Source: Bdellovibrio sp. NC01 (GTDB lineage: Bacteria > Bdellovibrionota > Bdellovibrionia > Bdellovibrionales > Bdellovibrionaceae). Taken from it: a stretch of 64,000 nt of DNA. Below the pieces are notes generated by a model that saw nothing but the letters and a program-made list of their open reading frames with translations, made no database searches and was not told where the DNA came from. Shown piece after piece: positions 1 through 55,006 of this stretch; within the stretch, counting starts at the first letter, position 1, and the number at the start of each line of letters is the position of its first letter. The stretch is taken from NCBI RefSeq assembly GCF_006874625.1, contig NZ_CP030034.1, forward strand, positions 1,426,001 through 1,490,000, given 5' to 3'. Position numbers and translations under genes: made by a program.

Positions 1-1186
1 CGATAACCTCACGGTCCAAACCGCCCGTAATTTCTGATTCCTCTTCGATCAAGCCAACGCCACCGCTACCAGTGCCACCAGCTGCAAGGCCACCCATACC
101 AGCAGCGTTTTTACCGCCACCGCGACCGTTCGTAGAAATCATCACGCCACTGCCGTTACCTGCAGCACCCCAGTCACGACCAGAACGTTCCATGCTGCCG
201 ACTGCAGCCAAGGCACGACCTGAAGGACCCGAACCTGCTTTCACGCCATTTGCGAAAATCACGTTGTTAGATTTTGCACCTTGCGCAGAAACTTTGCCGA
301 TCAATTGCGAAATACGACCGTTCGAAATCGATTTCATCATGTTCGCCAATTTACCGCCGCCACCACCTGTTGGCATTTCTGCCTTAGGACCTGCAGCAGG
401 AGCCGCTTGCACTGCCACTTGCGCAGGTTTTGCAGCTTCAGCTTTTTTACGCTTAGGTTTGATTTCAGTTTTAACAATAATTTTTTGCGCCACTTTTGGT
501 GGAGCCTCTGCCACAAGGTGGTTCGACTTCGGAGAGAAGATCGCCAGTGTAATGAAGAAAGCCGCAGCTCCCAACATCAACACCACACCTTTTTTAGAGT
601 CTTCATCAACCAATTGACTTGGAGAGAAGCGTGCAAGTCTTGCAGCATCTTCCAAAGACAATGTTCTTTGGCTGACTTCAAGATCGCCAACCATTTGGCG
701 GTGCCATTCCGGAGACGGCACACATGCGATCTTTTCAGAGCTCAATGCAGGTTGGAATTTTTTATTCAAAGGAAGGATCTTCGTTTGAATAACAACACCA
801 GCTTGTTTCACCATGAACAATTGGAATTGTTTGCCAAGTTCTTGTGATTCACGGCCTGCTTTTTCAAGGCGCATGTAAAGATCGACTTCTCTTTTCACCG
901 GAGTGAAAGAAAGAGTGCAATCTTCTAACTCAAGCACTTGATCTTTATTCAATGACAAAGCAGGGGAACCAGAGGCTTTTGCGCTTGTCATAAGATCCAT
1001 ATTTACGTACCACCACTGGTTGTCACGGAATTCAAAAAGACCTTGAATGCCTTTTGTACCAGGAGCGATCGAGATCACATCGGCATCGCGAGATGAACCG
1101 AATGTTTGTGTATTATTTGTTGAACGCAACTTCCAAGTTTTTGCAGTCCCGTTCTTAAGAGACTGACGTACAATTAACGTGAGCAT
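1..1186 (-). CDS. FHA-like / TonB-like envelope transducer, GltG/GltJ (AgmX) type, partial
   Basis: Starts at ATG 1186 and runs off the left edge with about 395 codons visible. The N-terminal ~95 residues look like a degenerate FHA domain (a GSSRDAD stretch near residue 30 and a WWYVN strand near 58-62, but no clear S..H). One membrane segment lies near residues 200-218, followed by a Lys/Ala/Pro stretch (about 225-262) and a long Gly-rich linker. The last visible residues, GGLDREVI, begin the AgmX/PglI-type TonB-like C-terminal domain seen complete in the paralogue at 48894-50117. This layout (cytoplasmic sensor, one TM, periplasmic TonB-like tip) is that of Myxococcus GltG/GltJ, which couple the AglRQS motor to the envelope. 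It is the last visible gene of a minus-strand operon starting near 8657. Function in this organism is inferred. Confidence 0.72.
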   Translation of the reverse strand, partial: MLTLIVRQSLKNGTAKTWKLRSTNNTQTFGSSRDADVISIAPGTKGIQGLFEFRDNQWWYVNMDLMTSAKASGSPALSLNKDQVLELEDCTLSFTPVKREVDLYMRLEKAGRESQELGKQFQLFMVKQAGVVIQTKILPLNKKFQPALSSEKIACVPSPEWHRQMVGDLEVSQRTLSLEDAARLARFSPSQLVDEDSKKGVVLMLGAAAFFITLAIFSPKSNHLVAEAPPKVAQKIIVKTEIKPKRKKAEAAKPAQVAVQAAPAAGPKAEMPTGGGGGKLANMMKSISNGRISQLIGKVSAQGAKSNNVIFANGVKAGSGPSGRALAAVGSMERSGRDWGAAGNGSGVMISTNGRGGGKNAAGMGGLAAGGTGSGGVGLIEEESEITGGLDREVI

Positions 1187-1466: not shown

Positions 1467-4400
1467 CTACAAGTCTCCTGAGATTACGTTCTGACCGACT
1501 TTGTTTTGATTTTTCAAATACTGTATTTTCTTACCTAACCAATCTCTCAAATCCATTTGCGAGCTTGCTTTGAACGCTTTTTCATAAGAGTCCAAGGCAA
1601 GAGTTGGGCTTCCTTTGTAAGTCTCAAAGATATGAGCTTGTTCTAGAAGGAAGTCGACATTGTCTTTCTTACCACCCAACAAATCTTTCAGAGTGCTGAG
1701 AGCTTTATCGACTTCACCTTTCTGAGCATAGGCTTCGCTCATCAAGGTTCCCACATTGAAAGTATACAACTGTTCTTTATTCAGAGAAGATAATTTTTCA
1801 ATTGCTCTAGTAAAATCTCCCTCTGAGAAAGCCTTCACGCCAGCGAAAGTTTGCATTTCTGTCGAAGGCATTTGCATGTCCAAAACTTTTTCGAAAAATT
1901 GCATTGCTGCATTCAAGCCATCGTCTTTATAAATCAAGCGTGCTTTTTGATATACGAATGGAGCTGCTTCAGGTTGAAGCTTCAATGCGGCTTCAATCAT
2001 CCACTGAGCTTTCTCTGTATAACCGCGAGCTTCCGCGCCAACGCTTGCATAGAACAAACCTAGTGCGCGCGTGTCTTTATTTTTCGCAAGCTCTAAACCC
2101 AATTTTTCAACGATATCGAACTGTCTAGAACCATAACAATTTCCTGCAATTTCGATCGGATTTACTTTCGCAAGTTGACCCGTTAAAACTGCGGCTTTGT
2201 TACAAGTTTTTCCTGCGCGAGTCTCAAGACGAGACACCTTACCGATGCTCATATCCATTGAAGCTGGCAAGAAAGCACCCATTTTATCAGCCGCAGGGTA
2301 TTGCACATCCGGAGTGATCGTTTGATCCACACGAATATTTGCAATCACACGACCTGTCGTTGCTGATTGACCCTTAGAAGCCGCAAGAACTTTCAATTTA
2401 TTTTCGTTCTCGTTCTTCTTTTCTTGGATCGGGTTGATCAATTTAGCCAACTCACCACGCAATTGCTGTTGTTCTTCCGGTTTCAAGGAAGCAGGCAATG
2501 GCATGCTTGATAAAGCTTCGATGTAGTTGCCGTAACAACGGTCGATACCGCGCATAGCTTCCAGCTGTTGATACGGATCTTTACTCATTTTCAAAGCTGT
2601 CACGTAAGCCGTTTGAGCTTTATCCAACTTTTCAGTCTTGATACCAAGAACTGTTGCGAATTTCTCTTCACGAGCTTTCACGCTTTGTTGGATCAATTCT
2701 TTTTCAAGAACTTGCGCTTGGATCAAACGAGCTTCCGCACGAACTTCTGCAGGAACACTACGGCCGTTTGCTTTCATCGAAAGATCGAAAGCAGCAGTCA
2801 TTTTGCCAGCGGCCAACAAAGCTTTCGCTTTGTCGATCATGATCTGAGTCGTATATGGTTCGATCCCTTTAGCTTGGATCTGATTTTGGATCTTCGCTAG
2901 CTCCGCAGAGTTCGGTTCACCTTTATATGAATCCATCAATTTGCCATAGATGCGCTCTAACGTTTTGTTATCAGCACCAGCCAGGATTCCCATATAAGCC
3001 GCACGAGCATCTTTGATTTTCTTTTCTAGCAAGTAGATGTCAGCAGCCGTTTCAAGTTGTGTGTTGCGACCTTTTTTATCAAGGTCGGCAATTTTCACCA
3101 AAGTTTCTGCCGATTTTGAAATTTGGCCGACGTCAGCGTAAGCTTTCGCAGCATCTTTCAAAGCATCCAAGTTCTTTTTATCGTCTGGATATTTCGAAAC
3201 GTATTTTAAAGACAATTCAGCAGCATCAAAGACTTTGCCTTCAGTATAAAGAATACCGATAGCTTGCCATTGAGCGTCTTGAGCTAACTTCGAACCTTCG
3301 TGTTCTTTAGCGTAAGCGATAAGCTTTTGCGCAGCTTGGTCTTTGTCACCAGTTTTCGCAAACTCTTGAACTTCCGTAAAGTGAGCTTCTTCGAAGATTT
3401 TGCCCATATCTTTTTTGCGGGCTTCGTCTGATGAAGAAGTCATAACTTGTTTCGAGAAATCTTTGATACCAGCGTAGTCTTTCTTGATGTTCAGCATATC
3501 CAACACCAAGTCTTCAGATTTCTTTTTGATATCTGCGTTTTCAGAGCCTTTAACGACAGTCAAAGGTTTCAACCACTTTTCAGCTTCTGGGTAGTTTTGC
3601 TCTTCGTAAGCAATGTGACCCATTTTGAATTTCACTGATGTCGCGAATTTGCCAGCAGGATATTTAGCTAAGTAGTTTAAAGCCAATTCTTTACGTTCAG
3701 CCTCTTTCAAAGCATCTTTCTTTTGATCGATAGACTTTTCTTTAGAGAATAGGGCCGCGTAGTTGGCATCATGGCGAAGAGGTTCTTCTTTAGAAGCATC
3801 GCCCACCATTTTGTACTGAACGCTGGCGTCATCGTATTTACCCAATTGGAATAACAACTCTGCATAGGCAAAGCGTGTTTTCAAATCTGGTTTCGTTGGA
3901 TCTTCGTTATCCAACATCAATTTGAAAAGTTTCTGAGTCAAATTCGAGAACTCAGTGTTTTGTTTGTTTTTAGTCCAGATGTCCCACCATTTTTTCGTCA
4001 TATCAAGACTTGTATGGCGGAAACCTTCGTTACAAGAAGCTTGTGCAACGTCTGCTTTTTGCATTGTTTTCCAAGCAGAATCTTTGCGGCAAAGATCGCT
4101 GGCCAATTGCAAATGCTCTAGAACCAAATCACGTTTCTTCAAAGTTTCGTTCGCTTCAACCAAGGCCAAGTGAGATTTCACAACCTCTGGACCCGATGGG
4201 CGCTTATCGATGTATTCGCCCAAGAAGATATTCATCTCTTTTTGGCGAGAATGCGAATCGTAAAGTTTCGCAAGGTCCGACATTGATTGACCTAGTTCGT
4301 CTTCAGTCGTGATGTCTTCGAAGAAAGAATAAAGTTTATTAGCAGGGTAAGAGTCACCAATGAAGACCGTCAAGTCACGCAAAGCTTCTTTACGCAAGTT

Positions 4401-5174
4401 GTGGCGGTTCGTTGGAACTTCACCTTCTTGAAGTGGCGGATTGTTTTTAACAACCTCGATCAACTTCTTAATGCCGTTATCAGAGTCATGAAGATTATAG
4501 TAAGCCCATGCTGCTTTATACATACCGTATGAATACACACGGCTTTGTGGGAATTTTTCTAAGCGTTGGAATTGGTCCAAAGCGGCAGCAAATTTACCTT
4601 GATCATACAACAACTCACCCAACGCCAACGTACCATCTGGTACCAATGGAGATTTAGGGAATTTTTGTAGTAGGCGAGCGTAAAGATTATCAGATTCTTT
4701 AAATTGACCCACTTGCTGATGAGCAAAGGCATTGTTGAAAAGAACTGAGTCCATTTGTTTGAAGCCAGGGAATTCCGCTTCAATTTTATTATAGATTTTG
4801 ATGGCGCGTTTAATCGCCTCAGCACCTTTTTCGTTTGGTACTGGGAAAGAAGAAAGCTTCATCAGCGGTGTATCTTTGTGTAAATCAAAGAAACGACCTG
4901 ATTTAGATCTTCTCATGTAAAGCTCGGCAAGGCGGTACCATAGGTCCGCCTCATTTTTCGAGCCTTTTTGTTTTTTAAGAATAGCTTGAAGAGACTCGAT
5001 CGCCTTATTTTCAGAGCGCGTGATCATGATCTCGCTGCTTAATGCTTTTCTTTCGTTGTCATCTTCGTTGCCGGATAGACGCACTTCAGGCAAAAGGCCC
5101 TTTTCGGTTTCTGCAAAACAGTAAATCGAAAAAAGATGTATTGCTAGAAGAAGAAATACTGTGCGCAGTTTCAT
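1467..5174 (-). CDS. giant TPR-repeat exported protein of locus A
   Basis: About 1235 residues. The chosen start is ATG 5174, six bases after GGAG; a TTG at 5186 is in frame but lies inside that Shine-Dalgarno and the upstream gene. Residues 1-22 are a signal peptide (ending IYCFA). The rest is almost entirely helical repeats of TPR type with spaced A/Y/G patterns such as LWYRLAELYMRRS, LALGELLYDQGKF and YAELLFQLGKY. There is no lipobox and no enzyme motif. Myxococcus gliding loci encode comparable periplasmic TPR proteins (GltC, GltD/AgmU, GltE/AglT). The gene lies directly after two ExbD-like genes, and its paralogue in locus B is 50405-53368 (987 residues). A scaffold linking inner-membrane motor and outer membrane is the likely job, by analogy. 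Confidence 0.8.
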   Translation of the reverse strand: MKLRTVFLLLAIHLFSIYCFAETEKGLLPEVRLSGNEDDNERKALSSEIMITRSENKAIESLQAILKKQKGSKNEADLWYRLAELYMRRSKSGRFFDLHKDTPLMKLSSFPVPNEKGAEAIKRAIKIYNKIEAEFPGFKQMDSVLFNNAFAHQQVGQFKESDNLYARLLQKFPKSPLVPDGTLALGELLYDQGKFAAALDQFQRLEKFPQSRVYSYGMYKAAWAYYNLHDSDNGIKKLIEVVKNNPPLQEGEVPTNRHNLRKEALRDLTVFIGDSYPANKLYSFFEDITTEDELGQSMSDLAKLYDSHSRQKEMNIFLGEYIDKRPSGPEVVKSHLALVEANETLKKRDLVLEHLQLASDLCRKDSAWKTMQKADVAQASCNEGFRHTSLDMTKKWWDIWTKNKQNTEFSNLTQKLFKLMLDNEDPTKPDLKTRFAYAELLFQLGKYDDASVQYKMVGDASKEEPLRHDANYAALFSKEKSIDQKKDALKEAERKELALNYLAKYPAGKFATSVKFKMGHIAYEEQNYPEAEKWLKPLTVVKGSENADIKKKSEDLVLDMLNIKKDYAGIKDFSKQVMTSSSDEARKKDMGKIFEEAHFTEVQEFAKTGDKDQAAQKLIAYAKEHEGSKLAQDAQWQAIGILYTEGKVFDAAELSLKYVSKYPDDKKNLDALKDAAKAYADVGQISKSAETLVKIADLDKKGRNTQLETAADIYLLEKKIKDARAAYMGILAGADNKTLERIYGKLMDSYKGEPNSAELAKIQNQIQAKGIEPYTTQIMIDKAKALLAAGKMTAAFDLSMKANGRSVPAEVRAEARLIQAQVLEKELIQQSVKAREEKFATVLGIKTEKLDKAQTAYVTALKMSKDPYQQLEAMRGIDRCYGNYIEALSSMPLPASLKPEEQQQLRGELAKLINPIQEKKNENENKLKVLAASKGQSATTGRVIANIRVDQTITPDVQYPAADKMGAFLPASMDMSIGKVSRLETRAGKTCNKAAVLTGQLAKVNPIEIAGNCYGSRQFDIVEKLGLELAKNKDTRALGLFYASVGAEARGYTEKAQWMIEAALKLQPEAAPFVYQKARLIYKDDGLNAAMQFFEKVLDMQMPSTEMQTFAGVKAFSEGDFTRAIEKLSSLNKEQLYTFNVGTLMSEAYAQKGEVDKALSTLKDLLGGKKDNVDFLLEQAHIFETYKGSPTLALDSYEKAFKASSQMDLRDWLGKKIQYLKNQNKVGQNVISGDL

Positions 5175-5175
5175 T

Positions 5176-5673
5176 TTATTCTCCAACTAAAGTCACTAGT
5201 TTCAATTGCGGGAAGCCCGCCATTGAAGCTGTATACATGACCTTTCTCAAAGTTGCATAAGGAAGCTCTTTATCTGCTTGAAGCAAGATACGGCCTTCTT
5301 TGACGCCAGCTTTATCTTGAGAGTTTTTAGCAAGCTTATCTAGCTCTTCGAAAAGAGGCTTGATGAAGTTTGTGTCTTTCTCTTCAAGATCTTGCGGAAG
5401 AAATTCCGCATCTTTAACGTCGGCAATCTTTGTTTGGTCAATTTTAAGGGCTGTTCCAGACAGCGAAAGCTTAATCGCTTCCGTTGGATTCGATTGCGAA
5501 GCCGAAGATGGCAAGCGCAAACCATTTTCTGGAATGATCTGAACATCTGACGTCGAATAAGTTTGCAACAAGAACACGAGGAGGATCGTGAACATGTCGG
5601 TCATCGACGTGATATTCAAAGCAAATGTGGAGTTCTTTTTAAGGTTTGGCTCATAACGACGTCTGCGTGACAT
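5176..5673 (-). CDS. ExbD/TolR-family proton-channel subunit (Asp intact), locus A
   Basis: 165 residues. A short basic cytoplasmic tail (MSRRRRYEP), one membrane helix and a periplasmic domain give the ExbD/TolR/AglQ/AglS layout. The helix reads LNITSMTDMFTILLVFLL; Asp26 aligns with the Asp of the family's N-V-T-P-L-V-D motif that carries protons. The periplasmic domain ends with the usual ILLQADKELPYATLRKVMYTA strand-helix pattern. It is the second ExbD gene after the TolQ-like gene; the stop overlaps the ribosome-binding site region of the downstream TPR gene, so translation is probably coupled. Together with 5678-6223 and 6282-6983 it would form one motor complex. Confidence 0.9.
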   Translation of the reverse strand: MSRRRRYEPNLKKNSTFALNITSMTDMFTILLVFLLQTYSTSDVQIIPENGLRLPSSASQSNPTEAIKLSLSGTALKIDQTKIADVKDAEFLPQDLEEKDTNFIKPLFEELDKLAKNSQDKAGVKEGRILLQADKELPYATLRKVMYTASMAGFPQLKLVTLVGE

Positions 5674-5677
5674 GTTG

Positions 5678-6223
5678 TTAGCCCTCCATCATGTTAGAGA
5701 AAATGATTTCTGGAAACATATACGGTGTATCTACGTTCTTCCCTTGTTTCGTATCAAACACTGGAAATTTTACTGATGAATCGTGAGCTTGACGAACTTC
5801 ATCCATGATTTTCACGATTTCCTTGTAGGGAACTTTCGCATCTGGATTCAGTTCAAGCTTAAAGATTTCAGGATGTAGTTTTTTAACTTCAACTAATTTT
5901 TGGTGAAGGGCAGGAAGGTCGAAGGCGCCATCTTTCAATGGAACTTCTTCTACTTTCTCTTGGCCTTTTTCAGTCACCACAATGCGGAAACCATCTTTCG
6001 CGTCGACATCCAATGCGATGTTTGTCGGCAAGTTGTCTTTGTCTTGACGTTGGATAGCTTCATTCACTACTTGTGGCAATTCTGTTTCGATAACCATCAT
6101 TTGCACGAAGGCTGAGGAAACCAGAAGAACCGGAACTAGTTTTACCATCACAGCAAGCAGGGGAGCCAAGTCCAACTCGAACTCACTGTGGTGATTAATT
6201 TTTAACTTTTTTGCGCGTCTCAT
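5678..6223 (-). CDS. ExbD/TolR-family subunit lacking the transmembrane Asp, locus A
   Basis: 181 residues with the ExbD layout: basic N-terminus (MRRAKKLKINHH), one membrane helix, and a periplasmic domain with the family's P-Y-K-E-I-V-K-I-M-D-E-V helix near residues 133-145. The helix reads ELDLAPLLAVMVKLVPVLLV. Aligned to the family motif N-V-T-P-L-V-D-V-M, the proton-carrying Asp is Ala24 (codon GCT, 6154-6152), and Lys28 falls one helical turn later. The other ExbD genes in the window (5176-5673, 53858-54319, 53368-53853) all keep the Asp. The reading frame is intact and lies in the operon, so this is not a decaying gene. A structural or regulatory subunit in a mixed ExbD pair is my inference. 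Confidence 0.88.
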   Translation of the reverse strand: MRRAKKLKINHHSEFELDLAPLLAVMVKLVPVLLVSSAFVQMMVIETELPQVVNEAIQRQDKDNLPTNIALDVDAKDGFRIVVTEKGQEKVEEVPLKDGAFDLPALHQKLVEVKKLHPEIFKLELNPDAKVPYKEIVKIMDEVRQAHDSSVKFPVFDTKQGKNVDTPYMFPEIIFSNMMEG

Positions 6224-6281: not shown

Positions 6282-6983
6282 TTAAGAGACCTTTGCGCCT
6301 GGAGTCGGAGGTGTCATCGCTGGCACGTGATCAGGGAACACGTTTTGGCGAGTCAAGTTAGGGATGTGTGCACTTGTAAGAAGCTCTGCAAGTTTACCGC
6401 ATTTTTCCATCATCTCTTCAAGCAACTCGTTTTGACGAGAAGTTAGGAAAGAGAAGAACACCATCGCAGGGATCGCAACCGCAAGACCCAACGCTGTTGT
6501 ATACATGGATACCGAGATACCTTGTGCAAGCAACGCTTGTTTTTGTGCAGGGTCAGCTTGTGCAACCGCTTGGAACGACAGGATAAGACCGTGGATCGTA
6601 CCAAGAAGACCTAGCAATGTTGCAACGTTGGCAAGCATTGAAAGATAGTGCAGGCGTTTTGTATACAGCGGTGTATTTTCAGACAAAGCGATGTCGTGCG
6701 CTTGGAAAATAGTGTCGTCATCACGGTCTGCTTTTTCCAAAATAGTTTTGAAAGCTGCAGCCAATGGCTTTTTCTCAAGCTGAGCACACATCAAGAGTGC
6801 TTCATCAAGCTTTTTAGCTAGAACCAAAGTTTGGATCTTGCCCATGAACTCTTCCGTGTTCATACCGTATTCTTTATAGAGCATCTTTGCTCGTTCAGCT
6901 ACCAGGATCAAAGATCCGATACCAGTTAATAGAATTGTCCAGCCAACGAAACCAGATTCATTCATGAATTTAAGAAATGCCAT
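6282..6983 (-). CDS. TolQ/ExbB/AglR-family motor subunit, locus A
   Basis: 233 residues from ATG 6983, chosen because GGAGG lies six bases upstream; the frame is open further back but inside the upstream gene (14-base overlap). Three membrane segments: residues about 12-30, and a pair near 115-140 and 155-185. The signature LANVATLLGLLGTIHGL and the following GISVSMYTTALGLAVAIPA match the TolQ/ExbB/MotA channel helices. The protein pairs with two ExbD-like subunits directly downstream, the same one-plus-two arrangement as AglR-AglQ-AglS of Myxococcus. It would use the proton gradient to drive envelope-spanning partners. The C-terminal tail is rich in Pro (about residues 215-233). Confidence 0.92.
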   Translation of the reverse strand: MAFLKFMNESGFVGWTILLTGIGSLILVAERAKMLYKEYGMNTEEFMGKIQTLVLAKKLDEALLMCAQLEKKPLAAAFKTILEKADRDDDTIFQAHDIALSENTPLYTKRLHYLSMLANVATLLGLLGTIHGLILSFQAVAQADPAQKQALLAQGISVSMYTTALGLAVAIPAMVFFSFLTSRQNELLEEMMEKCGKLAELLTSAHIPNLTRQNVFPDHVPAMTPPTPGAKVS

Positions 6984-7581
6984 TTGTTTCCTCCTTGGCA
7001 ACGCCACCGCGCGACCATTTTGTAAGTTGAGCAACACCGTGTTCTTGCACTTCGAGGAAACGGACAGCATAGTGCAGACCGGATTTAACATTAAGTCTTT
7101 GCTTCGAATAATTCTTACGAACGATCTCGCAAAGAACGTTGAACGATACTGGATTCACATCAGAAGTTCTGAAGTGAAGCAGAATTTTTTGACCTGGTAA
7201 AAGAAGCGGATCGTTCAAAAGAACGAGAGCTCCGTTTTCACTCACAGAGAGTGTTTGACCATCGAAAAACGTTTGATCGTTGTGCGCATAAACAGGCGTC
7301 ACAAGGTCAACACGTGGTACCTTTCTATCCTTGAAAGAACCTGCCAAGTGATCTTTAGTTTCGATCAAACGGCAAAGACGGTCTTTAGAGAATTCTTGCA
7401 AATCACCTACGAGAGTCCAATTCTCAAGGTGCGGAGCCCATACGTAATTATAATCGTAAAGCTCGCTGTTTTGAATCATAGTGATCAAGGATTTGTACTC
7501 GTAAGGACCGTATTTCATGTCCCCACGAAGGATGTACCACTCTTGACCTTTTGTAGTTGTTGCTTGTACCCCACCACTCAT
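6970..7581 (-). CDS. GYF_2 (DUF4339) plus PilZ domain protein
   Basis: 203 residues, soluble, no signal. Residues about 13-60 are a GYF_2-type domain: W15, YGPY at 24-27, and the paired Trps at 48 and 55 (VWAPHLENW). Residues about 85-180 are a PilZ domain with RKVPR (R86xxxR90) and SVSENG (112-117) in place of the usual D/NxSxxG; c-di-GMP binding is plausible but the first Asp/Asn is Ser. The gene overlaps the TolQ-like gene by 14 bases. In Myxococcus a GYF domain is part of GltJ's cytoplasmic region; here it is a separate protein with a PilZ partner. A c-di-GMP-responsive regulator of the motor is my inference. Confidence 0.83.
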   Translation of the reverse strand: MSGGVQATTTKGQEWYILRGDMKYGPYEYKSLITMIQNSELYDYNYVWAPHLENWTLVGDLQEFSKDRLCRLIETKDHLAGSFKDRKVPRVDLVTPVYAHNDQTFFDGQTLSVSENGALVLLNDPLLLPGQKILLHFRTSDVNPVSFNVLCEIVRKNYSKQRLNVKSGLHYAVRFLEVQEHGVAQLTKWSRGGVAKEETNGIS

Positions 7582-7592
7582 ACAGCACCTTC

Positions 7593-8657
7593 TTACAATT
7601 TGATCGATTTCGGATCGAAGTTAATTTTCACACTTGAATTCGCTGATGGAACCGCGCTGCCGTGGAACGTGATGATCATAGTTGCTGCATCATAAGTCCA
7701 ACCGTTCGTTGCGTTGTTTGGAACCGAAGCGCCATCAACAGTCACTACGATTGATTCTGGAATCGGCTCACGAGACAATTTGAATGCACTCGAAAGCTGG
7801 ATGATTTTATCAGAGATCAATTGTAGAGATGTACCGAAGTCAGAGCACAAAGAAGATCTTACGCCACCAGTTGCATCAGCCATCGCATTGTAGCGCTGAG
7901 AAATCTTTTGTGCCGCATTTGGATCGCCCGCCATCAACTGAGAACGGCAAGCAGCATCTTGTACTGAAATCGTGCTTACTGAATAGTTTCTGCCGTTTGC
8001 AGTACCGCCAGTGTATGAATCCAAGAAGTCAGTATATTTAGAAATAGGGAATAGGCCTGAGTAATTGTAGTCTTCATGAAGTGAAGTCGTATTATTCGAG
8101 AAATCGTCCTCGTCACTTACGATAATCACTGCAAGAAACGCATCGGCGCGACGGAAACCAAGTGATACGTTGTAAGGCTCGTTACCTAATGATTGGTAAA
8201 GAGACTCAAACGCACGTTCGTCACCGTTACCGTTAATGCCAACCTTAGCATTTGTTGCGAATACGGAACTCAAGTTCGAAGTATTTTTATCCATCACAAA
8301 CACACCTGAATGTGTTGTGCCGTTACCATCACGGATTTTAGCTTTATCGCTTGTGAAGAATTCTTTCTCCCAGCCGTCAGTCGTAACAACTGACATATGG
8401 AAGTCATAACTATATTGGTTGAAGCGTGAGATGAAAGACTGGAAGTTGTTAGCCAAGTTAGTTTGTGAAGTAGCCATAGAGCCTGAGTTGTCGATCACCC
8501 AAAGGATGTCGATCTTCTTAGGGATATAGACAGCTTCTTGCGTGAAGCTAGCTGTATCAGCAAGCGTAGAGTACGAGCCTCCACCTTTAGCGCAACCGGC
8601 AAGCATTGCTAACGCTGAAGCGAATGTCATTGCTTTGCGTGCGACTTGATTAACCAT
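7593..8657 (-). CDS. VWA-domain lipoprotein, locus A
   Basis: About 354 residues. ATG 8657 has AGGAGG eight bases upstream and is preferred; ATG 8663 is only two bases from it. The signal peptide ends in the lipobox LAGC, so it is a lipoprotein. A von Willebrand A domain follows, with the metal-binding DNSGS motif (in ILWVIDNSGSM) and SDEDD in the second loop. The C-terminus has a NGWTYD...ITFHG strand pair that recurs (GGWLYD...HLSG) in the VWA lipoprotein ending locus B (44342-45616), so the two are paralogues. It is the first gene of the locus A operon. The role is unknown; VWA domains usually mediate protein contacts, and an outer-membrane adhesion or assembly role is possible. Confidence 0.83.
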   Translation of the reverse strand: MVNQVARKAMTFASALAMLAGCAKGGGSYSTLADTASFTQEAVYIPKKIDILWVIDNSGSMATSQTNLANNFQSFISRFNQYSYDFHMSVVTTDGWEKEFFTSDKAKIRDGNGTTHSGVFVMDKNTSNLSSVFATNAKVGINGNGDERAFESLYQSLGNEPYNVSLGFRRADAFLAVIIVSDEDDFSNNTTSLHEDYNYSGLFPISKYTDFLDSYTGGTANGRNYSVSTISVQDAACRSQLMAGDPNAAQKISQRYNAMADATGGVRSSLCSDFGTSLQLISDKIIQLSSAFKLSREPIPESIVVTVDGASVPNNATNGWTYDAATMIITFHGSAVPSANSSVKINFDPKSIKL

Positions 8658-8710
8658 ACTCATGCCCTCCTGAGCAACCCCACCACGTTTGTGTTTCGTG
8701 ATGAAGTTAG

Positions 8711-48893: not shown

Positions 48894-50117
48894 TTAGCGA
48901 CTGCTTACGCGAGTCAGCTCAAATGGATAGAGAACATCAACATTCACTTTGCCTACAGGGCGAGGGAACTGCCATGTACGCATTCTATCAAGCATGCAGT
49001 TTTCAACCATGCGCGAACCTAAAGACGACTGCGATACTTTCGCCGTTGTGATACGACCTGCTGGACCGATCACGAAATCGACTGCCACGCGACCACCAAG
49101 AGTTGGAGCCGCTTGCAAACCTTTTTCATAACAATAGATGATTTGACCTCTGTTGCGGTTGATAACAGCGATGATTTGGTCACGATCTAAACCGCCTTCA
49201 ACAGTTGCTTCTTCATCAAGAGGAAGACTGACTGCGCTTGTGCCGCCAACCATATTCAATTTGCCGTAACCAGCTTTACCGCCACCAACACCACGAGTAC
49301 CGTAGCCACCCGCAGATTGGGCACGACCGCCTTCACCCGCGGAACCTGCGATCAAACCAGAACCAGGCATATAACCTTTGATACCACCACGGCCTGCTGA
49401 ACCAACGCCGCCACCGCCGCTGCCTGTACCGGCTGCACGGATTGCTTTCATTGAGCGAGGATCCAAACCTTCATAACCTTTAGCACCAGTTGGGATACCA
49501 CCCAAAGCGGCCAAAGCACCAACGCGTTCAACGTTTACGGCTTTCGCTGTATTCACTTTGTAAGGTTTTGTTTTAAGTTTATTCGCAACCGGGCGATAAA
49601 CTTTGTTCGTTTGTTTCAACTTATGCTCTGACACTTTGACGTGCGGAGCCGGTTGAGCTTTTTCAGGTTTTGTTTCGTCTTTAGGAAGAACGATCGTCAC
49701 TAATTGCGGCTCTTCTTTTTTAGAGAAGTAATGAGCAATAACCCATGAACCAAGCATTAATGCAAACAACGCCGCCAAGTGACCCAACGCTGTTTTTTGC
49801 ATGATGATTTTAAGATCTTCTTTATCGTTTTCTTCTGGAAGGTAATAGATCGGGCTGTTGTCGACTTTAGCGCCGGCAACACGCACTGAACCAACACCCG
49901 GAATCACCATACCAGCTTCAGAAATTTCTGAAAGATTGATGGTTTTAAGAAGACGATAATCAACCTTGTTTTCATCAAGTGATTCAAGACGGGTATACGC
50001 TTCAACTCTGCGTTTATCAGTCAGATAAACGAGATTCAAAGCTTCAGCTTCAACCGAGAAGGTACGAACCTTCTGGCCCAACTGATTTTGTAAGATTAAA
50101 AGCTTTGTTGTTCCCAT
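48894..50117 (-). CDS. TonB-like envelope transducer, GltG/GltJ (AgmX) type, locus B
   Basis: 407 residues. A cytoplasmic N-terminal domain (about 1-100) has no clear FHA, GYF or zinc-finger motif. One membrane helix follows (about 110-130), then a Lys/Pro-rich stretch, a Gly-rich linker (about 225-305; GTGSGGGGVGSAG), and a C-terminal AgmX/PglI-type domain (about 310-407) with EGGLDRDQIIAVINRN, QIIYCYEKGLQ and VDFVIGPAGRI. The C-terminal domain is TonB-like and would contact outer-membrane parts. Paralogue of the protein at 1-1186. It would be driven by the TolQ/ExbD complex at the start of the operon. Confidence 0.85.
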   Translation of the reverse strand: MGTTKLLILQNQLGQKVRTFSVEAEALNLVYLTDKRRVEAYTRLESLDENKVDYRLLKTINLSEISEAGMVIPGVGSVRVAGAKVDNSPIYYLPEENDKEDLKIIMQKTALGHLAALFALMLGSWVIAHYFSKKEEPQLVTIVLPKDETKPEKAQPAPHVKVSEHKLKQTNKVYRPVANKLKTKPYKVNTAKAVNVERVGALAALGGIPTGAKGYEGLDPRSMKAIRAAGTGSGGGGVGSAGRGGIKGYMPGSGLIAGSAGEGGRAQSAGGYGTRGVGGGKAGYGKLNMVGGTSAVSLPLDEEATVEGGLDRDQIIAVINRNRGQIIYCYEKGLQAAPTLGGRVAVDFVIGPAGRITTAKVSQSSLGSRMVENCMLDRMRTWQFPRPVGKVNVDVLYPFELTRVSSR

Positions 50118-50126
50118 TTCTGAATC

Positions 50127-50408
50127 CTAGTTTCTTTCTTGATCTTGTTGGATGCGGTCTTCGAACTGTGTTCTTCCGCCCAGAAGATCTTCAAGTAATT
50201 TATCGTTTTCTACTGCGGCCTTCGTACTAAGTGAGGTCTGATATTTCCCGCGAAGGGCAGAACCGTCGAACTTAAACGAAGTGCCAAGTTTTGGCTTAGT
50301 ACCCTCGACTTTTTTCCCTTCATTAGGGCTTGTTTTCGCGAGGGCGCTAGCTCCAAAGCTGCTAATCAGAGTTAGCAAAAGGGAGGCCACTAAAACTGCT
50401 GTTTTCAT
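50127..50408 (-). CDS. small exported protein of locus B
   Basis: 93 residues; the start overlaps the stop of the TPR gene (ATGA). Signal peptide 1-24 (GASALA). The mature part contains FKFDGSALRG and EDRIQQD, placed as in the 82-residue protein at 1204-1452. No known family is recognised. Same slot between the TPR protein and the TonB-like transducer in both loci. Confidence 0.72.
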   Translation of the reverse strand: MKTAVLVASLLLTLISSFGASALAKTSPNEGKKVEGTKPKLGTSFKFDGSALRGKYQTSLSTKAAVENDKLLEDLLGGRTQFEDRIQQDQERN

Positions 50409-53368
50409 AGGCTTTTTCCTTTCTGGATGTGATTTAAACGCGCTTCCAGATAAGAGGGCATTAACGGATGGCCAATTTTTGTCTCGATAGATTTCAAGTT
50501 TTCAAGATCCTTCACGCTATCAGGGTTTTCAGACACTGATTTGCGAGCCGAAGCAAGATCACGAGCCGACAATGATGAAGAGCCATAAGCATCTTCGACC
50601 GCCGTCTTCATTTTGCCGCGACCTGGAAGCTCTTCCAACATCTGCATTTCACGAGAAAGCAGCTTTTGGATCTCTGGGCGCGCCATACGGTAGTCGCGAG
50701 CCAAAGAGGCAAGAGCAGGGGATGAATTCCATAATTCGTTCATTTTCGTCTGAGCCGTTTTCGCCTTCATCAAGAACGGTCTTGATTTGGCTTTCAAGGC
50801 TTCAACGTATTGCTTTTGTTGAGCCGCCGTCAGACCCTTTGGCATATCAGCGCCTGACAAATCCTTAACAAAGCGTTGATTTTCAATCGCTACGATATTC
50901 AAAGCGACCAACTGAGCTGTGATGTCTTTTGTTTGAATAGACTCAGTCAAAGTTTGGTCTGCTTTAGCCAACAATTTCATACGTTGAGTAATACCCTTCG
51001 TAAGATTTTTGTCAGAACCATCGTCAATTTTGTGCTTCGCGATCTGATTTTGGAACTCATTAAGCTTGTTGTAGAACTCTTGTTTGCGAATGAAAGAGTT
51101 CGCAGATTGTTTGCGCATCTCTTTCATTTCTAAAATCGATTGCAAGCCTGCTTTGTTTCCAGTTTTTGCGTAAACCAACAAAGTCGTTTCATTCAACATT
51201 GAAGGTCTTGCACGCAAGTCAGCAGATTGGATTTTCAACTCTCTAACAGGGTTGCTTGAAAGAAGAACCAAACGCTCGCGGATAACAAGAGCACGTTCAC
51301 CAGAAATACCTAAAGCCAAAGCTTCTTTATAGTGTTTTTCCGGATTGATATCAGCCAAGTCAGCCAAAGTACCAAGACGGAAAGCTTTTTCTTTCGCCGA
51401 TACTTTTGAATCGTTCATTTTCAAAGCGGTATTATAAGCGTTTTTGAAATCAAGCTTACGTTCGTAGTAACCAACAAGTTGTTCTAAATACTGCTGCTTC
51501 TTCGCTTCTGGAGTTTCAGGAGTATTGATCAACGCATACAAAGATTTTGCATAAACGTCGTCTTCGCCCAGTTTTTTCGCAACGACGCTTAAGTTTGTGA
51601 AAATCAAGATGCGTTCGTCTGGTTTTGCACCATCCAATTTCGTCTTCAAAACTGTCTTCATCACTGATTTCAATTCTGATTTTGTCGAATGCGGATTGTT
51701 TGCGACGTCAGCCACTTGATTCATCAAAGCACGACGAGCCACACCTGAAAACTCAGGGGCGTTTGCCGGCATCATCTCTGCGTAGTCATTTGCATTTTCT
51801 TGGATGGCTTCGTCGTCTTTCAACTGAGCGTAAGAATCCAAGGCAAGGTCCGCGGATTTTTTACGAAGATCTGCTTTCGTGTTTTTATCACGAGCCAAAT
51901 CGTTAAACATCTTCGCCGCGTCTTTCAACTGCTTAGCTTGATAAAGCTGGTAAGCTTGTTGGTAACGAACTTCGTAGTATTTTTCGTCTTTTGCGGAATT
52001 CTTTAAGAAGTAAGCGTAAGCCTCTTTCTTAAGAACGGGATCGCCAGATTTTTCAGCAGCAGCAACTTCATTCAGCATCGCTTCGTTTTGCTCTTTAGCT
52101 GAATAAGTGCGGCCTTCGGCGATTGTGCGGTAAAGTTTGATAGCGGTTGGGTATTTACCCATGTCCATCGCAACTTGTGAACCACGTTGTACCATTTCCT
52201 TGTCGCCAGGGAATGTGTTTGCGTAAATGATATACGCGTTCAAAAGGTCTTGGTCAGGTTTTACTTTTTTAGAGCGGTGAAGTTCCGTTACATAACGCTT
52301 CATCGTCTTTTTCAATTCTTCGCACTTGTTCGAATCGTCGCAATCAGTATTTTTGAAAGCTTCAGCAGCTTTCGCGAAGTCTTGCGTTGATTTGCCAGTT
52401 TCACCACGGTCGTAGTTCACTTGTGCCATACGAACAAAAGCTTCAAGACGTTCTTGTTTTGTCAAATCAGGTTGATCCATATAACGCGTCAGGATCAAGT
52501 GTGCCGCTTGTTTTTGACCAACGCGGTCTGCTTCCTGAGCGAAATTCAAGATCAATTCTTTGCGTTTTTCTTTAGGAGTCAAAGTTTCATAACGAGCGAT
52601 TTCTTTAATCGTGATCTCTTTACGAGCATAGAAAGTACCCAGGTCGCGAACGATATCAGTGTGGAAAACTGGATCGTAATTGCTGCCAGCTTCCGTGTCT
52701 TTCGTGATTTTAGTAGGGTCTTTCAACAAGCCCTCTAATGTGTCGATAGCAGAAGTCAGCTTGTCTGTGTTGAAGTCACACCAAGCCATGTTGTAGATAG
52801 CTAAAGATTTGTTTTCAAGATTTTTGTCTTTCAACGCGATCACGTAGTGTTCTTTAGCTTCTTTGAATTTGCCTTTTTGGAATAGCAAATCGCCCAATGA
52901 AGCGTGAGATCTAGAAACGATACCAGCATCGATAGACTTCGCTTTAGCTTCTTTAATAATACGTTCAAACAACGCAATAGCTTGATCTTGTTGACCAGCC
53001 ATTTCGTACAAGTGAGCCAATTGGAACAAGATCGGTCCGTGCTCGTTCAATTTCACTTCAGTCAAAAGAGTTTCATAAATTTTGATAGCGCGTTGACGGT
53101 CGTCTTTAGAACCTTTGCAGTTTTCGCAGTTCGCTTCAACTTCAGCCATGAAACGAGTACGTGCGCGTTCCGCCAAAACGTCAGCAAGACGTTGTTGTGT
53201 TGGAATCCAAGAAGGGTCTTTGCGATCCATCAAGTCCAAAACACGGTCCATCTTTTTGATAACCAAGTCTTGCGTGTCTGCATTCATCTTCTCTGCATGA
53301 ACCGGATGAGAGAAGAGCATACCCGCAAGAACCACATTTAAAAAAAGGAGGTGTTTTGTGTTTTTCAT
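50405..53368 (-). CDS. giant TPR-repeat exported protein of locus B
   Basis: 987 residues with a signal peptide (1-25, ending HPVHA). TPR-type helices run through the protein (ILFQLAHLYEMAGQQDQAI, HASLGDLLFQKGKFKEA, AIYNMAWCDFNTDKLTSAI), with a CENC pair near residue 83 and coiled helical content toward the C-terminus. It is shorter than its locus A counterpart (1235). Likely periplasmic scaffold between motor and outer membrane, by analogy to Glt TPR proteins. The stop of the upstream ExbD gene shares a base with this start. Confidence 0.82.
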   Translation of the reverse strand: MKNTKHLLFLNVVLAGMLFSHPVHAEKMNADTQDLVIKKMDRVLDLMDRKDPSWIPTQQRLADVLAERARTRFMAEVEANCENCKGSKDDRQRAIKIYETLLTEVKLNEHGPILFQLAHLYEMAGQQDQAIALFERIIKEAKAKSIDAGIVSRSHASLGDLLFQKGKFKEAKEHYVIALKDKNLENKSLAIYNMAWCDFNTDKLTSAIDTLEGLLKDPTKITKDTEAGSNYDPVFHTDIVRDLGTFYARKEITIKEIARYETLTPKEKRKELILNFAQEADRVGQKQAAHLILTRYMDQPDLTKQERLEAFVRMAQVNYDRGETGKSTQDFAKAAEAFKNTDCDDSNKCEELKKTMKRYVTELHRSKKVKPDQDLLNAYIIYANTFPGDKEMVQRGSQVAMDMGKYPTAIKLYRTIAEGRTYSAKEQNEAMLNEVAAAEKSGDPVLKKEAYAYFLKNSAKDEKYYEVRYQQAYQLYQAKQLKDAAKMFNDLARDKNTKADLRKKSADLALDSYAQLKDDEAIQENANDYAEMMPANAPEFSGVARRALMNQVADVANNPHSTKSELKSVMKTVLKTKLDGAKPDERILIFTNLSVVAKKLGEDDVYAKSLYALINTPETPEAKKQQYLEQLVGYYERKLDFKNAYNTALKMNDSKVSAKEKAFRLGTLADLADINPEKHYKEALALGISGERALVIRERLVLLSSNPVRELKIQSADLRARPSMLNETTLLVYAKTGNKAGLQSILEMKEMRKQSANSFIRKQEFYNKLNEFQNQIAKHKIDDGSDKNLTKGITQRMKLLAKADQTLTESIQTKDITAQLVALNIVAIENQRFVKDLSGADMPKGLTAAQQKQYVEALKAKSRPFLMKAKTAQTKMNELWNSSPALASLARDYRMARPEIQKLLSREMQMLEELPGRGKMKTAVEDAYGSSSLSARDLASARKSVSENPDSVKDLENLKSIETKIGHPLMPSYLEARLNHIQKGKSL

Positions 53369-53853
53369 TATTTTGGTACTACCGCGAATTTAAGTTTTTC
53401 AATGCCAGCTTGAGATCCCGCTTTAAGCAATGGATCGAGATCGGCATATTTCATCTCGGTATCGGCTTGGATCATCAACTCAACTTTGTCTTCTTTGGTT
53501 TTTTTCAACTCAGCCAATTTGTTGCTTAGTTGTGAACCAGACACAGCTTTATCGTTCAAGAAGTACGAACCCTTCTCGATACGCAGGATCGCAGTTTCTT
53601 TATCGATACCTTGGCTGTGTGAAGCTTGAGGAAGATTCATACGCGAAGGAACGGAAGTTTCGATACCGCTGTTTTGCGTTCCGATAAGCAAATAGATAAC
53701 GATGATTGAAAAAGCGTCGATCAAAGAAGTTAAAGGCAATGCGATCGCAAGGTTGCTAGCGATGCCTTTTTTCTTTTTATTTCCGTTTTTCAAGACCATC
53801 GCATCCATCAGTGGAGAAGCTTTTTGGTCTACTTTTAAAAAGCTCGTTTTCAT
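53368..53853 (-). CDS. ExbD/TolR-family subunit 2, locus B
   Basis: 161 residues from ATG 53853, four bases after the previous stop; the frame is open further upstream but inside the previous gene. A basic stretch (KNGNKKKKGIAS) leads into the membrane helix LPLTSLIDAFSIIVIYLLI with Asp46 in the proton-carrying position. The periplasmic part ends with MIQADTEMKYADLDPLLKAG, the ExbD pattern. Pairs with 53858-54319 and the TolQ-like gene. Confidence 0.88.
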   Translation of the reverse strand: MKTSFLKVDQKASPLMDAMVLKNGNKKKKGIASNLAIALPLTSLIDAFSIIVIYLLIGTQNSGIETSVPSRMNLPQASHSQGIDKETAILRIEKGSYFLNDKAVSGSQLSNKLAELKKTKEDKVELMIQADTEMKYADLDPLLKAGSQAGIEKLKFAVVPK

Positions 53854-53857
53854 AAAA

Positions 53858-54319
53858 TTACCCAAGAGGGGACAAGCCCACACCTTCAAATTGAGATTGT
53901 TTCAACTGATCCATGATTTTGATCACATCGCCGTAAGAGCTTTGAGCTCCGGGGCGAACGATACCAGTTTTCAGTTCAGGGAATTTTGTTTTCAAATCGG
54001 CTAATTTGGCTTCAAGGCCTGCCCAGTTCACACCTTTCGTAGTTTTAGCTACGCGTGTTTCTGATGTTTGAAGCTTCGGAAGGTCGCGCACAGAAAGTTG
54101 TACGCTACCATCTGCATCCAAAGTCACCCACAAAGACGGAGGATTTTTAGCGCCTGATGTGGAGTTGTCTCCAATAGCTTGCTTTGTATCCAATGTGCCG
54201 ATTTGAACCCATACCGCTGTCAACAACAGAAAGCAGATCAACACAGACAAGATGTCCAGGATCGGCAAAATGTTGATATCAAAATTCAACTTATCGTTGT
54301 TGTTGCTGGATGCGCTCAT
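53858..54319 (-). CDS. ExbD/TolR-family subunit 1, locus B
   Basis: 153 residues. The N-terminus is polar (MSASSNNNDK), with helix FDINILPILDILSVLICFLLL and Asp22 at the conserved site; the match to the family motif N-V-T-P-L-V-D is good. The periplasmic domain ends GVVRPG-type (TGIVRPGAQSSYGDVIKIMDQL). This slot corresponds to the locus A gene at 5678-6223, where the Asp is Ala. Confidence 0.9.
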   Translation of the reverse strand: MSASSNNNDKLNFDINILPILDILSVLICFLLLTAVWVQIGTLDTKQAIGDNSTSGAKNPPSLWVTLDADGSVQLSVRDLPKLQTSETRVAKTTKGVNWAGLEAKLADLKTKFPELKTGIVRPGAQSSYGDVIKIMDQLKQSQFEGVGLSPLG

Positions 54320-54337
54320 AGCTTACGCCCTTATCTA

Positions 54338-55006
54338 CTATTGTTTCTTGTCTGAAACTGGTTCGTAGTGGAAACCCAATTGGATGAACAAGTTCAAAGC
54401 CGCTTTGTTCAAATCGTCAGTTAAACGAGATGCACGGTTTTGAAGAACCGCATACATAATCAAAGCAGGAACTGCCACGATCAAACCGTACGCCGTTGTA
54501 TTCATCGCTAATGAGATACCTTGAGAAAGGATTGTCGCTTTTTCTACTGGGTTCGCGTTGGCGATACCTGCGAAAGAGTGGATCAAACCTGTGATCGTAC
54601 CTAATAGACCCAACAATGTCGCAACGTTAGCGAACATCGCAAGGAAACCAATGCGTTTTTCTACGCGCGAGTTTTCTTCTAATAGGATTTCGTCCATTTT
54701 AAGTTGGATTTCTTCTTTTCCGCCCATATCAAGAGCCGCTTGGATACCTGCAGAGGCAACAACACCCAATGGTTCTTTCATGCCCAATTGCATAGAGCGA
54801 CGAAGAGCTTTATCGAGGTGACCTGCACGGATATCTTCCGCAAGAAGTTTAGAAAGCTCTTTTTGATTCGTTTTACGAGAAACGAACAAAGCGTGAGAGC
54901 GTTCCAAGATAATAGCTACAGATACGATCTGAGCTGCCAAAATCGTCCACATCCAAATTGCATCGCCAGATGTGAAGCCAGAACCAAGTGACATTAGGAA
55001 TTGCAT
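54338..55006 (-). CDS. TolQ/ExbB/AglR-family motor subunit, locus B
   Basis: 222 residues, three membrane helices (about 15-35, 112-135, 155-180). The channel signature FANVATLLGLLGTITGLIHSF is followed by ILSQGISLAMNTTAYGLIVAVPALIMY. Very close in key segments to the locus A homologue (6282-6983). GGAGG precedes ATG 55006, and a sigma54-type promoter lies about 37 bases upstream of the start. First gene of locus B. Confidence 0.93.
   Translation of the reverse strand: MQFLMSLGSGFTSGDAIWMWTILAAQIVSVAIILERSHALFVSRKTNQKELSKLLAEDIRAGHLDKALRRSMQLGMKEPLGVVASAGIQAALDMGGKEEIQLKMDEILLEENSRVEKRIGFLAMFANVATLLGLLGTITGLIHSFAGIANANPVEKATILSQGISLAMNTTAYGLIVAVPALIMYAVLQNRASRLTDDLNKAALNLFIQLGFHYEPVSDKKQ

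Follow-up and report, generated by a model that had tools for sequence, protein, structure and literature searches.

An ExbD/TolR-family subunit without the family aspartate, and with an aspartate six residues upstream, in a gliding-type operon of Bdellovibrio sp. NC01

The locus was analysed within a stretch of 64,000 nucleotides of the Bdellovibrio sp. NC01 genome (contig NZ_CP030034.1, positions 1,426,001 to 1,490,000), called the window below, from whose first nucleotide all coordinates are counted. The gene under study, ExbD1, lies on the minus strand (6223..5678), runs from ATG to TAA and encodes 181 amino acids of an ExbD/TolR-family protein without the family Asp. Its neighbours, all on the minus strand, are intact. 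Upstream lie a VWA/MIDAS-type lipoprotein adhesin (7593..8663; weak NCBIfam matches to MIDAS adhesin and CglD), a protein with GYF_2 and PilZ domains (6970..7581) and ExbB (6282..6983; MotA_ExbB PF01618, E = 5.3e-26). Downstream lie a second ExbD, ExbD2 (5176..5673), a large TPR protein with YbgF/BamD-like repeats (1467..5186) and an AgmX/GltG-like (TonB-like) transducer (2..1186), which runs off the window and whose equivalent at the related locus L148 has FHA and TonB_C domains. The 3.98 Mb genome of NC01 holds eight ExbD genes, six of them within three ExbB-ExbD-ExbD triads.

ExbD1 was matched to the ExbD/TolR family by Pfam PF02472 (E = 4.6e-21, residues 12-155, 75.7 bits against a curated cut-off of 25.4), with homology across the TM helix and the periplasmic domain. 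The AF2 model (pLDDT 77, pTM 0.54) contained a helix at residues 20-38, followed by strands and helices from residue 51, the family architecture of a single N-terminal TM helix and a periplasmic alpha/beta domain. Foldseek matches were weak and included the periplasmic domains of TolR (5by4) and ExbD (8vgc and 8p9r), and a sequence search of the PDB with ExbD1 found no relative. The helix region reads E16-L-D18-L-A-P21-L-L-A24-V-M-V-K28-L-V-P31. When aligned to the adjoining ExbD2 (L-N-I-T-S-M-T-D26-M-F-T), the column of the proton-carrying Asp is occupied by Ala24 (codon GCT, 6152..6154, minus strand); Asp18 (GAC, 6170..6172, minus strand) lies six residues N-terminal to the lost Asp, and Lys28 (AAA, 6140..6142, minus strand) one turn past Ala24, at +4. 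The register was gap-free in a 20-row alignment with L19, P21, L23 and P31 invariant, by which misalignment was excluded as the cause of the missing Asp. The initial annotation, made from the letters of this stretch, had described an intact frame, an Ala24 in place of the family Asp, a Lys28 one turn on and an Asp in each of the window's three further ExbD-like proteins, and all of this was borne out; the three read SMTDMF (ExbD2, 5673-5176, minus strand), PILDIL (54319-53858) and SLIDAF (53889-53368). Asp26 of ExbD2 (codon 5596..5598, minus strand) provides the triad with its sole canonical proton site and was present without exception in the sequences aligned (83/83). Since the TM-helix Asp essential to proton-carrying B subunits (MotB/TolR/ExbD) was looked for and Ala24 was found in its place, ExbD1 is filed, on its sequence, as an ExbD/TolR-family member and the AglQ-position subunit of an AglRQS-like operon, and not as a canonical proton-carrying ExbD. 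A second helix proline, Pro31 (6131-6133), stands at +7 from position 24; it is invariant in the class and absent from other classes, predates the Asp loss and may kink the helix.

The gene arrangement is that of the M. xanthus AglRQS gliding/sporulation motor, with one MotA/TolQ-like subunit (AglR), then two TolR-like subunits, and with linked gliding genes, represented here by the MIDAS/CglD-like, PilZ, TPR and transducer neighbours. The conserved Asp is reported for AglQ as well as for AglS of M. xanthus, and whether the two form homo- or heterodimers was stated to be unsettled (PMC9389320); the AglQ substitution D28N abolished both proton conductance and motility (PMC3858216). The AglS-position subunit of the present operon has this Asp (Asp26), but the AglQ-position subunit differs from the Myxococcus state (PMC9389320, PMC3858216) in having Ala, with an Asp at -6. 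No natural Asp-less AglQ was found in the open-access literature searched.

AglQ-position genes were located at 397, 787, 1402 and 2281 kb in a relative genome (G004), presumably that of B. bacteriovorus HD100. Four tonB/agl operons are listed for HD100, namely Bd0412-0420, Bd0828-0838, Bd1473-1483 and Bd2368-2377 (PMC2797640), and since the four loci match these in order and relative position, the present operon is assigned by synteny to the gliding operon Bd1473-1483, with ExbD1 as Bd1480/AglQ, its partner as AglS, and the GYF_2-PilZ protein and the lipoprotein as the orthologues of Bd1482 and Bd1483. The HD100 orthologue of ExbD1 (L017) itself has D18, A24 and K28. Bd1481 was named aglR (PMC2277423) and Bd1480 aglQ (PMC9140294), Bd1482 was described as a PilZ protein encoded first, on the 5' side, in a gliding operon (PMC3271064), and Bd1483 as a MIDAS adhesin, deletion of which alone left prey invasion unchanged (PMC11003981). 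The operon is in use, as bd1480 is induced on surfaces (PMC9140294) and transposon mutants of Bd1481 and Bd1483 were weakened in predation of thick biofilms (PMC2277423).

For the distribution of the Asp loss, the order was searched (141 genomes, matches in 126) and 108 orthologues were read, the window's own included. The family Asp was absent from ExbD1 in 82/108 and kept in 26/108, with Ala at position 24 in 72, Asp in 26, Ser in nine and Gly in one; position 18 was Asp in 82, Asn in 25 and Ser in one. Orthologues with Asp24 exist in other families of the same order. The initial annotation had named retention of the Asp in close relatives as the result that would speak against it, and no such case occurs in the organism's own family; its claim of a conserved operon was likewise sustained, the ExbB-ExbD1-ExbD2 triad being complete alongside Asp-less orthologues wherever the contig allows. 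A recent single mutation was excluded by the presence of Lys28 in 57/57 orthologues of the family together with the absence of the Asp in 82 of the 108 of the order. The phylum was also searched (293 genomes); 40 triad loci were retrieved, from the sister order and from other classes, and all 40 keep Asp24; position 18 in Asp24 relatives is nearly always Asn, in a few cases Ser or Pro, and never Asp. Because Asp24 is universal among these outgroup loci, N18/D24 was taken as ancestral and D18/A24 as derived, and on these comparisons the Asp loss in ExbD1 is derived but old.

A triad tree was built from the three concatenated proteins with the helix columns omitted and rooted on the sister-order and other-class loci. 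It placed two changes for the Asp loss, and the same two for the gain of Asp18; an earlier tree, rooted on distant paralogues, had required four changes for the Asp loss. When all Asp-less rows were held as one clade, the arrangement was not rejected in the AU test (p-AU 0.508). Two independent coupled losses, as suggested by one tree that sets L056 apart, were therefore not retained as a firm claim, since a single origin is compatible with this value, and from these trees the Asp loss has one or two origins.

The loss was coupled to a gain. Among the 108 orthologues every one without Asp24 has Asp18 and none with Asp24 does, so that no ExbD1 has both acids and none has neither. Across the 578 aligned columns of the three proteins, positions 18 and 24 of ExbD1 were the only two that separated Asp-less from Asp24 triads perfectly, the next best being an ExbB position at 0.95; the best separators also included two ExbD1 positions on the helix stripe of 18, namely 25, one heptad on, and 32, two heptads on. 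With the gain of Asp18, of which the initial annotation made no mention, this residue becomes a candidate for an acidic group that was moved to a place just below the helix. At p = 0.508 for one clade, the swap could go back to one evolutionary event and would then lack independent replication. It is also not the only route to Asp loss. In the paralogous triad L105 (G107:C104), which is related to the operon at 48.9-55.0 kb, the first ExbD is again the one without the Asp and the second keeps it; Ser replaces Asp and Asn is kept at -6, which makes this a separate loss, and Asp18 is therefore not always required.

No compensating acid was found in ExbB. The threonines T128 and T162 of its pore, which correspond to E. 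coli T148/T181, are invariant; most of the class lacks an acidic residue at position 157 (E. coli Glu176), and the Asp loss is not followed perfectly by any ExbB column. On the branch leading to the organism's own family, ExbD2 acquired the substitutions Q20N, V25T and K37Q, and Y160 and H111 arose in ExbB.

The simplest reading of these sequences is a mixed ExbD pair with one canonical Asp, the asymmetric motor that the initial annotation had proposed. In its fuller form, for which the chances are judged about even, ExbD1 would be the permanently Asp-less half of an obligate AglQ/AglS heterodimeric axle in a 5:2 proton motor of the AglR-AglQ-AglS type. In such a motor an ExbB pentamer surrounds two ExbD helices, and the helices of the Asp-less AglQ and of AglS would stand together in one AglR pore. 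Only Asp26 of AglS would take up and release a proton mid-membrane, the Asp-less AglQ would fill the second helix position with a neutral Ala24, and Asp18, in the water-filled cytoplasmic cavity, would replace Asp24 as the acid that helps to guide or accept this proton once it is released. In ordinary motors the asymmetry is believed to pass back and forth between two identical subunits; here it would be fixed by sequence. If the axle rotates, each proton would drive a step of 72 degrees, at 5 protons per turn, in place of 36 degrees and 10 protons; these figures presuppose the rotary 5:2 model and a single working site. Lys28, added later in one family, would probably serve to tune that polar site. 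The complete proposal of a natural one-site 5:2 motor, with an obligate heterodimer of the Asp-less AglQ and AglS, one mid-membrane Asp, a second acid at the cytoplasmic mouth, five and not ten protons per turn and no two-Asp alternation, is put forward tentatively, at somewhat less than an even chance.

An axle with two working acids at different heights, in which Asp18 took over the full proton-carrying role of Asp24, was considered and is held to be unlikely. It would account for the perfect reciprocity of N18/D24 and D18/A24, for the two columns being the only perfect separators and for the differences at positions 25 and 32 on the stripe of 18. The placement of Asp18, however, speaks against it. 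The TolR helix begins at residue 19, with the Asp at 23, and one Asp touches the Thr ring as the other faces a cytoplasmic hydrophilic cavity (PMC12215075); from this layout and the helix start at residue 20 in the AF2 model, Asp18 should precede the helix and lie just below its start, in the cytoplasmic cavity. On an ideal helix, position 18 would be some 9 A lower than position 24 and rotated from it by about 120 degrees, so that it could hardly take up a proton arriving from the periplasm. In ExbB, moreover, the threonines serving the former site are unchanged.

The motor might instead consist of AglS homodimers in AglR, with the Asp-less AglQ as a non-conducting regulatory or anchoring partner that would, for example, cap, compete or bind peptidoglycan. 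This arrangement, to which a low probability is also given, would suit a subunit without the essential residue and an AglQ/AglS stoichiometry that is unsettled even in Myxococcus (PMC9389320), but the gene triad was kept in the loci examined and in the organism's own family the helix of the Asp-less AglQ is under no less constraint than the AglS helix, as expected if it is packed in the pore. Within that family the mean consensus frequency of ExbD1 was 0.935 in the helix against 0.622 in the periplasmic part, and that of ExbD2 was 0.891 against 0.637. The key ExbD1 residues show little or no variation, yet codons 18, 24 and 28 vary synonymously (D18, GAT 34 and GAC 23; A24, four Ala codons, with five Ser; K28, AAG 30 and AAA 27); four codons are used for P31. 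By these measures the Asp-less helix is under purifying selection and not in decay, and a decaying pseudo-subunit was excluded by the better conservation of the helix than of the rest and by the synonymous codon variation.

Lys28 was found in all 57 own-family orthologues and nowhere else, the position being S, T, A, C, N or V in other sequences, and it arose once (support 100), on the branch to that family. The Asp loss is wider than Lys28, which therefore cannot be what makes the loss work, and compensation by Lys28 was excluded as a general explanation. The salt bridge suggested in the initial annotation, by which Lys28 would pair with Asp26 of the partner and tune its pKa to give a charge-paired asymmetric motor, agrees with the invariance of Lys28 under both AAA and AAG codons and with its origin on the same branch as ExbD2 K37 to Q and the gain of Tyr160 in ExbB, but is very doubtful, as 25 Asp-less sequences do without it (T, A, C, N, S or V there), its gain was a single event and an ideal helix turns it roughly to the side of position 24, the side that meets ExbB in known motors, and not obviously towards the partner. 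On this branch ExbD2 position 37 (5563-5565) loses Lys to Gln where ExbD1 gains Lys28, which suggests a moved positive charge; this was one event and could be a coincidence.

The heterodimeric one-Asp reading was compared with known 5:2 motors. TolQR and ExbBD share with the triad the ExbD1 family domain, the single N-terminal helix, the periplasmic domain and the ExbB Thr ring, but TolR and ExbD are homodimers with two essential Asps, modelled as alternating every 36 degrees, which an Asp-less ExbD1 cannot join. GldLM of type IX secretion and Bacteroidota gliding, also 5:2, resembles the triad in that the central subunit GldM has no essential helix acid (PMC8986121); unlike in the present triad, however, its acids belong to the outer ring, GldL, rather than to a second central subunit. 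One of them, GldL E59, lies outside the membrane and is required for gliding (PMC8986121), and for GldLM no conclusive sequence homology was reported (PMC9389320). Rotary models for MotAB, ExbBD and TolQR assume that two Asps are used in turn, at 36 degrees per proton (PMC12215075), and a motor probably driven through a single proton site instead of two challenges this usual model of turning. An Asp-less subunit across much of an order, with the partner Asp kept, provides a natural test of the AglQ/AglS dimer type and of two-Asp models: either the axle is a one-site heterodimer, or AglQ stands outside the conducting core. It also corrects the Myxococcus-based expectation that Bd1480 (AglQ) carries protons in the gliding of Bdellovibrio; a 2026 review still described the machinery of this gliding as unidentified (PMC13104615).

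Other AglRQS-like operons of the genus, of the HD100 Bd0412-0420 and Bd0828-0838 types, have the same gene order in the same genome but, unlike the ExbD1 triad, keep the Asp in both ExbDs, as seen in those Bdellovibrio copies that were examined. The window contains one such operon at 48894-55006, an ExbB-ExbD-ExbD-TPR-TonB_C operon with both Asps kept, orthologous by position to Bd0412-0420, which is reported to be the predation-induced operon. The gene following ExbD2 also varies among orthologous loci. A homologue of the large TPR gene was not found after ExbD2 in the main Asp24 clade (L148, L150-L153, L160, L161, L163-L165 and L168-L171), and in L148, the sole locus of that clade checked, the FHA and TonB_C transducer follows ExbD2 directly; the TPR gene is present in Asp-less triads and in a small Asp24 clade of family f10.
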